Shown piece after piece: positions 12,693-39,994 of a DNA stretch of 64,000 nucleotides. Within the stretch, counting starts at the first letter, position 1; each line of letters starts with the position of its first letter. Under the pieces are notes generated by a model. That model was not told the origin of the DNA and ran no database searches. It saw only the letters and a program-made list of their open reading frames with translations. Both the position numbers and the translations under genes were made by a program. This DNA is from an uncultured Pseudomonadales bacterium (GTDB lineage Bacteria; Pseudomonadota; Gammaproteobacteria; Pseudomonadales; Porticoccaceae), in NCBI GenBank assembly GCA_943788895.1, contig CALSRZ010000005.1, forward strand, positions 124,001-188,000, in the 5' to 3' direction.

Positions 12693-12697
12693 TTCAT

Positions 12698-12870
12698 CTC
12701 CTGGGGTGTACGCCAGTCAAGAAGTCCCTGAGCCGATAATTATTATCCGGTTTTTCTCCGTCAATATTGTTGTGCACTTCCGTGCGTCGGAAAGCCTGAT
12801 ATATTGCGAGCGAAGCCACCTTGAACTCTTCGGTTCGAGGCCACGTTGACAGCGGCACCTTGGGGTTTAA
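12698..12870 (+). ncRNA. ssrS: 6S RNA
   Basis: Regulatory RNA that mimics an open promoter and sequesters sigma-70 RNA polymerase in stationary phase. It lies exactly between zapA and fau, the diagnostic position. Sequence blocks match the Escherichia molecule: GCCAGTC, then CCTGAGCCGATA on the 5' side, GTCGGAAAGCCT in the middle, and CACCTTGAAC with a GGTTCGAGG partner on the 3' side. The closing stem pairs GGGGTGT near 12703 with GCACCTT near 12855, including wobbles. Both ends are estimates from the promoter and the closing stem, accurate to perhaps 5-10 bases. Confidence 0.9.
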
Positions 12871-37764: not shown

Positions 37765-38409
37765 ATGTCAAGACAGAGACTTTCAGCAATTGACCATTTT
37801 CTGGTTCAAGCAGATCAGGCCCTGCGCACGCTGGCAGGAAGTGCTCCGCAACCACAACGCGTGTCTCCCGCAAGAAAAGTCCCTGAGGGTGAATTATCCG
37901 AGCAGGAAAAGCGTCATGCGGCGGGTTTAATGCGCGTTAATCATTCCGGTGAAGTCTGTGCCCAGGCGCTCTATCAGGGCCAAGCCCTCACAGCCAAATT
38001 GCCGGAAGTTGGTCAGCAGATGGCCGAAGCTGCCGCTGAAGAGATTGATCATCTGGCCTGGTGCGAGGAGCGCATCAACGAACTGGACGGCAAGCCCAGC
38101 CTGCTAAATCCGCTCTGGTATGCCGCGTCATTTGGAATAGGTGCCACGGCTGGATTGATTAGCGATAAGCTCAGTCTTGGATTTGTCGCTGCCACAGAAG
38201 ATCAGGTGTGCAATCACCTGCAAGAGCATCTGGACAGACTTCCAGCCAATGACAGTAAGAGTCGTGCGGTTGTTGAGCAGATGCTGGTCGACGAGAAACA
38301 TCATGCCGAGTCCGCGCTCGATGCCGGTGGCTATCCTTTCCCCAGCCCGGTTAAAAAGCTGATGACAGTCGTTTCATCGGCCATGACCGCAAGCAGTTAC
38401 CGCCTCTAA
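37765..38409 (+). CDS. coq7: 2-polyprenyl-3-methyl-6-methoxy-1,4-benzoquinone monooxygenase
   Basis: Di-iron hydroxylase of the ubiquinone pathway, an alternative to UbiF. The 214 residues show the ligand motifs [33 protein letters not shown] (EEIDH), the [12 protein letters not shown] glutamate and EKHHAESA. The membrane-binding central helices ([13 protein letters not shown]) are present. With ubiH and ubiI in this window, most of the aerobic hydroxylation steps are represented. It converges on the LysR gene with a 4-base overlap of the stops. Confidence 0.94.
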
Positions 38410-39386
38410 CTAGGTTCGTCCTGTGGCAATAGTTGGCTCTCTGAGCCTTCCATGCCAGTCGCCAGATCGACAATAATCTCTGATAACCAACGATGCATTG
38501 GCGAGCCTAGAGTTCGCTTGTGCTGCAATAACACCAGGGGAACGGTTCCCTCGTGAGGCAGATCTGCCGGATAGCGCTTGCTGACAACCCGGTGCAGTTC
38601 GCGCTCCATTCCTGAACCAAACTTTGCTGCAACCATTAGGCAATCTGTATCGCAGATTGTCTCAATAGCCGTCATCAACTGGTTGGTCACCATGGCTTTC
38701 TTACGCTTGCGCCCCAGCTCTCTCAATGCGCGGTCAAAACGCGCATCGGTTCTGGCACTTACCCGCTTGGCAATCAGCAGATAGTACTGAACAAAGGGGT
38801 ACTCAAGAATTTCATTAAGGGTTACCCGGGATTTTTGCGCCAGGGGGTGACCTTCGCGCATCCAGATCGTCGGGCTGAAAATAGCCAAATGCCGCTTGGT
38901 AATATCGCTGGTGATATCTTTTTCAATATCGATAGCGAAATCCAAAACTCCGTCAGCCAATTCGCCTTCCACAGAGTCAGTCTCACTGGAGATCGACAGC
39001 ACCACGCCCGGTGCATATTTATTTAATACGCCAGATAGCTGTGAGGCCAGGGAGATAGCAATAAATTCAGGGATCGCGATAGTCACTTCGCCGACATAGG
39101 CGGCGGGATCAAACTCACCCTCGGTGACCATATCGAGAATATCTTCGAGCATGCTCGGCAGTCGCAGTTGTAAATCCCGCGCCTTAGGTGTCGGAATCAG
39201 CTTATTTCCGGTGCGCGTAAACAGCGGATCATCCAATTGGTCGCGCAGTCGCTGCAGCACTCGGCTCATTGCCGGTTGGGTAATAAACAGACGTTCTGCG
39301 GCTCTTGTCACACTCTTTTCTTCAAGTAATGCCTGTAGAGAGACCAGTAAATTGAGATCGAGACGGGATAACTTCTGTAAATTCAT
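38406..39386 (-). CDS. LysR-family transcriptional regulator
   Basis: A 326-residue regulator. The N-terminal winged helix-turn-helix is clear ([24 protein letters not shown], then [14 protein letters not shown], residues 10-50). The C-terminal co-inducer domain follows. Its N-terminus resembles the NodD/NahR/LeuO-type subgroup (LDLNLL). It is divergent from two tandem small units at 39414-39994 whose promoters carry the same repeated operator-like motif, and the first motif lies 28-54 bases before its start codon. I infer that it binds there and may control itself and both units. Confidence 0.92.
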
Positions 39387-39413
39387 AAACTTAACCTAGG
39401 TCATTACCTGTGA

Positions 39414-39477
39414 GCATATAAATAATGCTAAGAATGCATTTGGATTATGACATACCTCTGAGTATATTGACACGCAT
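39414..39477 (+). promoter_or_regulatory. operator and promoter of unit 1 (microprotein gene)
   Basis: The operator GCAT-N7-ATGC-N4-AATGCATT spans 39414-39440. The -35 box TTGGAT (39440-39445) overlaps its last base. After 17 bases comes the -10 box TATATT (39463-39468), then CACGCAT (39471-39477) at the expected start of transcription. The same elements in the same order recur 393 bases downstream. Confidence 0.65.
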
Positions 39478-39515
39478 AGGGCAGATAGCCCAGTTAACAC
39501 TTAAGGAGATAGACC

Positions 39516-39638
39516 ATGACACTCGTATATATATTAATCGGATTTTCTGGATTAGCGGGTGCTGCAATTGCGAAAGATGATTTCGCCAACGTTAAAGCAC
39601 CAAAACTCAAAAATTCAGATAAAACGCTGGCCCAGTAA
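39516..39638 (+). CDS. 40-residue putative membrane microprotein
   Basis: A short frame with a near-perfect ribosome site (AAGGAGAT, 8 bases before the ATG) and a TAA stop. The product starts TLVYILIGFSGLAGAAIA, one membrane-span-like segment or signal anchor. A lysine-rich polar tail of about 22 residues (AKDDFANVKAPKLKNSDKTL) follows. It is framed by a promoter (39440-39468) and a strong terminator (39692-39720), so it is the only gene of its transcript. No family is recognised. It could be a small membrane protein or a cleaved secreted peptide. Confidence 0.7.
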   Translation: MTLVYILIGFSGLAGAAIAKDDFANVKAPKLKNSDKTLAQ

Positions 39639-39691
39639 GCCGACGTTTTGAAACCAAACCCCTCTTAATCCTTGCTATAGGATTTTTTTAC

Positions 39692-39720
39692 GGGGCCCAA
39701 CCTCTGGGCCCCTTTTTTTT
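39692..39720 (+). terminator. intrinsic terminator of unit 1
   Basis: GGGGCCCA-ACCTC-TGGGCCCC is a perfect 8-base GC-rich stem with a 5-base loop followed by eight T. It is 54 bases after the microprotein stop. The flanks GGATTTTTTTA before and TTTTTTTTGCCTGC after recur at the unit 2 terminator. Confidence 0.92.
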
Positions 39721-39806
39721 GCCTGCTAAAAATCCAACATACATACAAAGTTCAGTCAAACCTCAGAGCACGGAATACCTGATATTTTTAGCGATATTAC
39801 CAAAAT

Positions 39807-39869
39807 GCATGACCCTGATGCAAACAATGCATTGGATGTATGGGCTTAGTATTCTTATTATGCACGCAT
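39807..39869 (+). promoter_or_regulatory. operator and promoter of unit 2
   Basis: GCAT-N7-ATGC-N4-AATGCATT at 39807-39833 has exactly the spacing of the unit 1 operator. It is followed by TTGGAT (39832-39837), 18 bases, TATTAT (39856-39861) and CACGCAT (39863-39869). Confidence 0.65.
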
Positions 39870-39994
39870 TGAAGTTGTACAGAGATTTTTAAGGGCTGCT
39901 GAGAAGCAACTCTTTAACAGATTTACCCCCTACCCCTTTTCTTGTGATTCATCCAAGGATTTTTTAAGGAACCTTCCTCAGGTTCCTTTTTTTT
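39868..39994 (+). ncRNA. candidate small RNA (unit 2)
   Basis: A transcript of about 125 bases is predicted from the unit 2 promoter and terminator. It holds no reading frame with a ribosome site; the longest ATG frame near its start is 10 codons. Visible RNA features are a TGCT-GAGA-AGCA stem closed by a GNRA tetraloop (near 39896), a single-stranded C- and T-rich stretch (ACCCCCTACCCCTTTTC near 39924) suited to base-pairing with G-rich ribosome sites, and the terminator hairpin with a U tail. Function and targets are unknown. Confidence 0.45.
39966..39994 (+). terminator. intrinsic terminator of unit 2
   Basis: AGGAACC-TTCCTCA-GGTTCCT is a perfect 7-base stem followed by eight or nine T and then GCCTGC, matching the context of the unit 1 terminator. 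Confidence 0.88.

Follow-up and report, generated by a model that had tools for sequence, protein, structure and literature searches.

Results

A LysR gene faces two tandem operator-promoter units

The locus lies in a stretch of 64,000 nucleotides, here called the window. It comprises a LysR-type regulator gene (38406..39386, minus strand) and, divergent from it, two small tandem units on the plus strand. A domain search placed the 326-residue regulator among the LysR-type proteins by its N-terminal HTH_1 domain (1.1e-18) and its LysR substrate-binding domain (LysR_substrate, 7.5e-17). Assignment to a named LysR subfamily was rejected: none of those in NCBIfam (BsrA, LelA, YidZ, CitR) reached its cut-off among the 25 matches listed, the best being BsrA with 105 bits versus a cut-off of 480.

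A first-pass annotation of this DNA had described for each unit an operator, a TTGGAT box, a -10 box and the sequence CACGCAT. We confirmed all of these at both units, with operators starting at 39414 and 39807 and hence the claimed spacing of 393 bases. The operator is better read as GCAT-N7-ATGC-N7-GCAT-N7-ATG, which would be four half-sites in 11-bp steps making up two LysR-type dyads. The second dyad, missed in that annotation, is the GCAT-N7-ATG that follows AAT, its N7 being TTGGATT in unit 1 and TGGATGT in unit 2. Within each operator the two dyads measure 15 bp each, their centres are separated by 22 bp, and the -35 box overlaps the second. Such geometry is usual for LysR-type sites, as in the ATAC-N7-GTAT of BenM.

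Operator 1 spans 39414..39450 on the plus strand (dyads 39414-39428 and 39436-39450, reading GCAT-N7-ATGC-N7-GCAT-N7-ATGA) and overlaps predicted promoter 1 (39440..39468, plus strand), which consists of TTGGAT at 39440-39445, a 17-base spacer and TATATT at 39463-39468 and is kept in the unit-1 consensus. Operator 2 (39807..39843, plus strand; dyads 39807-39821 and 39829-39843; 41 unit-2 sequences) overlaps predicted promoter 2 (39832..39861, plus strand), read from the sequence as TTGGAT at 39832-39837, an 18-base spacer and TATTAT at 39856-39861. Also missed in the first pass was the element GTCATTAC, which lies upstream of operator 1 (39400..39407, plus strand; consensus of 46 unit-1 sequences) and in the consensus of the unit sequences is kept upstream of both units. 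Half-site counts in the unit consensus lean on the relaxed pattern with which the sites were collected.

The pattern GCAT-N7-ATGC-N5-ATGCAT has exactly two exact matches in the 1.95-Mb genome that contains the window, both at the two units, and a reversed-pattern control has none across that genome. When up to three mismatches were allowed the window gave three operator matches, a number reached by 21 of 100 shuffles (mean 1.46) and not significant; hence, the evidential weight falls on the exact matches and on conservation. With up to two mismatches, additional matches appeared in seven genomes, at places that look unconserved beyond the LysR locus. A third exact site was found in two genomes, G005 and G010, and in G005 it lies inside an ORF of 842 residues. 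Geometry and adjacency suggest that LysR controls the two units. As operator 1 also fronts lysR itself, its geometry and position make autoregulation probable.

Unit 1 carries a conserved microprotein ORF

The 40-residue ORF of unit 1 (39516..39638, plus strand), already proposed in the first pass, is preceded by AAGGAG at 39503-39508 and is backed by conservation of its protein sequence in SAR92 and other genera of Porticoccaceae. The core of the microprotein reads M-T-L-V-Y-x-L-x-G-F-x-G-L-x-G-A-A-I-A-K-D-(D/S)-F, and its part GLxGxAIAxDD persists from genus to genus although the nucleotide sequence differs. AlphaFold2 modelled a single helix, residues 2-26 (pTM 0.31), with pLDDT values of 89 and 85 over the first and second ten residues and then 65 and 54. 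Hydropathy is 1.96 over 18 residues, and a transmembrane microprotein is predicted. At E 0.001 neither Pfam nor NCBIfam gave a match to it. Some internal-start peptides and one spurious ORF (L069 at 1314) in the peptide listings were excluded from use.

Synonymous codons were identical in 0.646 of comparisons among 37 SAR92 microprotein sequences (one further locus, L071, was missed by the search pattern) versus 0.407 in LysR, and LysR windows of equal size (n=112) reached at most 0.489. Ala16 is encoded by GCT in 33 of the 37, Ala17 by GCA in 34 and Ala19 by GCG in 33. Because neighbouring residues of the same amino acid use different codons, which codon bias alone does not explain, the RNA inside the ORF is likely under constraint beyond that on the protein. 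A candidate hairpin within the ORF (39558..39601, plus strand; GGUGCU/AGCACC outside, GCGAA/UUCGC inside) is suggestive. Its positions pair in 93.5% of cells versus 24-49% when slid, and three pairs have changed on both sides, as many as in 8 of 500 shuffles; its percentage paired and its covariation score, reached by 101 and 60 of 500 shuffles, do not stand out.

RNA-level constraint on codon choice would also be expected if the units were plain sRNAs and the ORF incidental, and two groups, together 10 of the 58 SAR92-like loci among the best 80 of 152 (see below), have no ORF. Conservation of the GLxGxAIAxDD core across nucleotide sequences that differ between genera, together with the Shine-Dalgarno-like sequence and the predicted helix, makes an incidental ORF very improbable.

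Both units end in a C-rich element, a hairpin and a terminator

Transcript 1, the predicted microprotein mRNA with a C-rich 3' RNA, would extend from a start placed at 39475 to 39720 (plus strand; alignment of 28 units, with L069, L084, L118 and L121 left out). Its 3' part holds the C-rich element ACCCCTCTTAATCC (39658..39671, plus strand), our proposed sRNA seed, and directly 3' of the seed the hairpin AAUCCU-loop-AGGAUU (39667..39684, plus strand). Terminator 1 follows (39692..39720, plus strand; GGGGCCC/GGGCCCC stem, T8); its stem differs among units, and at several pairs the changes preserve pairing. Predicted RNA 2 (39868..39994, plus strand, its start likewise placed by prediction) has the C-rich element ACCCCCTACCCC at 39925..39936 and terminator 2 at 39966..39994 (AAGGAACCT/AGGTTCCTT stem, T8), both on the plus strand. 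The first-pass view that unit 2 has no supported frame stands, an ORF starting within the operator being present only in G000, G017 and G033 and no frame being conserved. The 3' ends are common to the two units as had been described: a GGATTTTTT(T)A run, a hairpin and then CCTTTTTTTTGCCTGC, which agrees at 16/16 positions.

The C-rich element, overlooked in the first pass, is the best-conserved piece of the 3' parts of both units, and its presence in both argues against a simple division into one protein copy and one RNA copy. Two types recur: type I joins ACCCCUCUU to AAUCCU-loop-AGGAUU and type II joins ACCCCUCUU to CUUUG-loop-CAAAG, each followed by a terminator with a U tail of at least 7; in unit 2 of the window ACCCCCUACCCC is joined to a short stem. 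A common seed start combined with different stems would be expected of paralogous sRNAs. In three genomes (G024, G026 and G030) the coding unit has an altered C-rich element or none, and in G032 this element is unreadable (N).

Against 200 shuffles each, the fold of transcript 1 stands out (z -2.89, reached by 0) and that of RNA 2 does not (z -1.03, reached by 30). When transcript 1 takes its best predicted fold, the conserved seed is partly paired with the transcript's own Shine-Dalgarno sequence, AGGAG pairing with CUCUU of the C-rich element. This pairing and the structurally unremarkable unit 2 would fit a microprotein that is the only functional product, a C-rich element that acts in cis by masking the Shine-Dalgarno sequence or protecting the 3' end of its own mRNA, and non-coding copies that are decaying duplicates.

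A scan of the window with Rfam gave no family at gathering score for either unit; mmgR/suhB (RF00519, 20.5 of 41 bits) and ncS54 (RF02871, 19.1 of 43 bits) fell below it. Known Rfam families were thus rejected on score, and DUF1127 was rejected for want of a domain match. The only Rfam match in the window at gathering score is a 6S RNA at 12695-12870 (92.4 bits).

At the LysR locus of the genus the C-rich element is more constant than the ORF

By its named records, among them HTCC2207, MOLA455, H921 and H231, the genus belongs to the SAR92 clade of Porticoccaceae. Conservation was assessed in 35 genus genomes, that of the window included, and in 21 genomes of other families. A search of relatives for the operator beside this LysR type, proposed in the first pass, succeeded within the genus: the exact pattern is present in 30 of 35 genus genomes versus 1 of 21 from other families. 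A LysR ortholog of at least 69% identity was found in 34 of the 35. Two strict operators precede LysR at 24 of these 34 loci, one at 6 and none at 4, and in the last four both operator positions hold near-matches in which GTAT replaces GCAT. ACCCCTCTTAATCC occurs exactly, once or twice per genome, in 34/35 genus genomes and 0/21 others, and is in front of LysR at 34/34 loci.

For a broader survey the best 80 of 152 named loci were taken, 58 of which (L067-L124) are SAR92-like. The peptide is in unit 1 at 25 of the 58 and in unit 2, or the last of three units in L110, at 14. Seven loci, all of one clade, have two RNA units, neither of which encodes the peptide, three have a single RNA unit and no peptide, and nine have LysR without the usual units. 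Exact ACCCCTCTTAATCC is present at 46 of the 58 loci, with variants in L069, L084 and L100. In L110 two ORF-less RNAs with ACCCCTCTTAATCC come before the peptide unit.

The coding copy is first in one clade and second in others. The first-pass picture of a duplicated module with one coding and one RNA copy is supported for this genome; roles are not fixed across clades, and the seven loci lacking the peptide in both copies depart from it. On a tree of 80 LysR proteins the five arrangement labels need 4 changes, the minimum possible, and the RNA-only loci and the nine loci without the usual units share a well-supported clade with the unit-1 coders; this was a quick tree without bootstrap, with long branches flagged and with an outgroup that no single branch separates from the rest. 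At the LysR locus within the genus the predicted RNA element is the more constant part, the ORF being in either copy, missing or elsewhere. These patterns tell against decaying duplicates: at the seven RNA-only and three single-RNA loci the operator, seed and terminator persist in units without an ORF, unit 1 of clade B lacks the ORF and has its seed unchanged, and an exact 14-mer would not survive decay.

The nine loci that carry LysR without the usual units argue against strict LysR-unit coupling, and would be expected if the operators belonged to another regulator and the LysR gene were adjacent through shared synteny. We think this quite unlikely. LysR-type sites have dyads of this geometry, at most genus loci the LysR start has one operator 25-32 bp away, small units again front orthologous LysR genes outside SAR92, and the one genus genome without LysR, G012, lacks motif and seed too, in an assembly that is only 71% complete.

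Displaced copies and relatives outside the genus

At one of the nine loci without the usual units, L104, a peptide ORF lies 0.57 kb from LysR. A peptide profile matched seven of the nine genomes, two weakly (E 3.5e-4 and 0.0011); those of L114 and L120 gave no peptide match anywhere at E 0.01. No peptide match was obtained in the five genomes searched from among the ten ORF-less loci (L122, L123, L124, L092 and L101). GCAT-N7-AT(G/T) lies 70-85 nt before the start codon at seven of eight relocated or displaced peptide loci and in 1-5% of shuffled upstream stretches per locus, or 3-5% when it may stand anywhere in the stretch, a pattern that was chosen after viewing the sequences and that counts four close relatives among the displaced loci. 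L233, which has only 69 nt of upstream sequence, cannot show a dyad at that distance. At the LysR locus the dyad is 75-83 nt from the start codon at all 38 of 38 loci. A C-rich seed after the displaced ORF is clear in only 2/8, ACCCCTCTTAATCC in L238 and a similar CCCC run in L239; L232 to L237 showed no convincing C-rich run there. With the dyad kept at seven of eight displaced loci and the seed at two, operator and ORF tend to travel together and the RNA element less so. L234-L237, in some SAR92 genomes, hold a relative of the peptide (MSVIYAVLAVSGLLGAAI...) with a GCAT-N7-ATT dyad, beside a gene that by eye resembles alpha/beta hydrolases of the dienelactone-hydrolase type.

Among 390 genomes of the order, 46, from 22 of 142 genera, have a LysR ortholog (E <=1e-75), and small units mostly precede the orthologs examined outside SAR92 (L125-L146, L147-L186). 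Outside the genus the number of units ranges from one to four. Other Porticoccaceae have one to four in tandem with peptides (four in L154), and in Porticoccus (L127-L132) RNA alone precedes LysR. In distant families hydrophobic peptides of 23-43 residues with a Shine-Dalgarno-like sequence are found (L170, L172-L178, L181, L185), and from position and pattern our guess is that they are akin to the SAR92 peptide; candidate CAT-N7-AT dyads stand before them. Peptides without a C-run occur in these families, which would fit a microprotein as the only functional product. Some upstream regions, such as those of L167, L171, L179, L180 and L182, have no comparable small unit. In another family of the order, f41 (L157-L162, L166, L183, L184), the LysR ortholog has in front of it an ORF-less stretch that recurs among these loci, holds CATCCAGGTCC and a terminator, and differs from the SAR92 element. 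At 20 loci of non-SAR92 Porticoccaceae 31 terminators were detected, none of them in L136, and a C-run stands 18-75 nt upstream of 29 of the 31 versus 30% of random positions; these loci are not independent, and some of the terminators belong to near-identical relatives.

The peptide profile matched 13 of 390 genomes of the order, all Porticoccaceae and all at the LysR locus save for extra copies in G215, which has four matches at LysR and six elsewhere. The six (L226-L230) share a promoter-like upstream sequence with ACTTAACATTG, not LysR-type dyads, and none has a CAT-N7-AT dyad within 110 nt. As ACCTACCC, which is C-rich, follows the ORF in five of the six, the ORF and, mostly, the C-rich 3' part have evidently moved in G215 without the operator, and the extra copies may answer to another regulator.

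Targets and Hfq

Hfq is encoded in all 22 genus genomes searched. The seed complement AAGAGGGGT has six matches in the genome of the window, one of which is the sRNA itself. Another (L242:1500-1515) is immediately before the start of a porin-like ORF, a gene that follows VTC-like and DUF4956-like ORFs (names by eye). We rejected it as a general target because its protein had a match in only 5 of 36 genomes, its own included (E 1e-30). In five genomes AAGAGGGG-N3-11-ATG gave 28 matches versus 16 for a reversed control, and no ORF of at least 50 residues among them was common to the genomes. Neither screen, that with AAGAGGGGT in the one genome or that with AAGAGGGG-N3-11-ATG in the five, gave a conserved seed target, a result that would also fit the microprotein as sole product. 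Given the retention of operator, seed and terminator in ORF-less units, we consider that account unlikely.

Discussion

We consider it reasonably probable that the locus encodes LysR-controlled tandem sibling sRNAs, one of them dual-function, in a layout of the GcvA/GcvB type. The LysR protein would bind two dyads, two helical turns apart, before each unit. Each unit would then be transcribed into a short RNA whose 3' part is laid out like that of an Hfq-dependent sRNA: first a C-rich seed (ACCCCUCUU or ACCCCCUACCCC), next a hairpin, and last an intrinsic terminator that has a long U tail. As the seed resembles an anti-Shine-Dalgarno sequence, the RNAs would most likely block translation of target mRNAs at their Shine-Dalgarno sites. 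Unit 1 would in addition be translated into the microprotein, which we expect to insert into the membrane.

More tentatively, and at somewhat less than an even chance, we propose an undescribed cassette of operator, transmembrane microprotein, anti-Shine-Dalgarno-like sRNA and terminator, which across several families of the order accompanies a single group of LysR orthologs, duplicates in tandem (up to four), trades roles between copies, loses its ORF while keeping the RNA, and moves. If so, the passage between mRNA and sRNA could be read in living relatives. SAR92 bacteria are common in the sea and some strains are cultured, and their compact regulon offers a natural genotype series (coding plus RNA, RNA only, swapped, multiplied, moved) in which the passage from mRNA to sRNA, or the reverse, is open to comparison and simple genetics. 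The locus also adds a microprotein family to which no model of Pfam or NCBIfam matches at E 0.001. In the open-licence literature we found nothing on this locus or on any SAR92 small RNA.

Parts of the locus resemble known arrangements, and where membership of a known family was checked it was not found. PrrF1/PrrF2 and OmrA/OmrB are pairs of adjacent similar sRNAs under one regulator; they share the tandem siblings and differ in having other regulators and no known microprotein. SgrS, an sRNA that also encodes the small protein SgrT, adjoins a regulator gene and so resembles our locus in joining an sRNA and a small protein beside a regulator, although we take SgrR not to be a LysR protein and SgrT not to be of the peptide type found here. 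The oxyS sRNA gene is divergent from that of its LysR-type activator, OxyR. The GcvB sRNA gene is likewise described as divergent from that of GcvA, the LysR-type regulator that activates it (PMC1557403, in the part available). The likeness to both, drawn here from sequence, is a small unit with LysR-type dyads divergent from a LysR gene; those systems differ in having a single sRNA unit and no known microprotein, and the window gave no Rfam match to the GcvB or OxyS families.

Closer in their products are two RNAs that join a small protein to an sRNA. According to the part of the report available, the CcaF1 mRNA of Rhodobacter is a small-protein mRNA whose 3' UTR yields the repeated RNAs CcsR1-4 (PMC8625941). 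CcaF1 is a DUF1127 protein, whereas our peptide has no Pfam match at E 0.001, and that part describes no LysR gene, whereas one adjoins here; the common feature is a small-protein mRNA with a 3' small RNA part. VcdRP of Vibrio cholerae, as described in the available part of its report, is a single transcript with a 29-residue ORF and an sRNA whose seed has four cytosines and which represses at translation start sites in an Hfq-dependent manner (PMC8672173). It differs in being CRP-repressed and, in that part of the report, in having no adjoining LysR gene and no tandem non-coding sibling. Transcript 1, with a conserved small ORF and a cytosine-seed sRNA part predicted from its letters to share one RNA, resembles VcdRP in just this combination.
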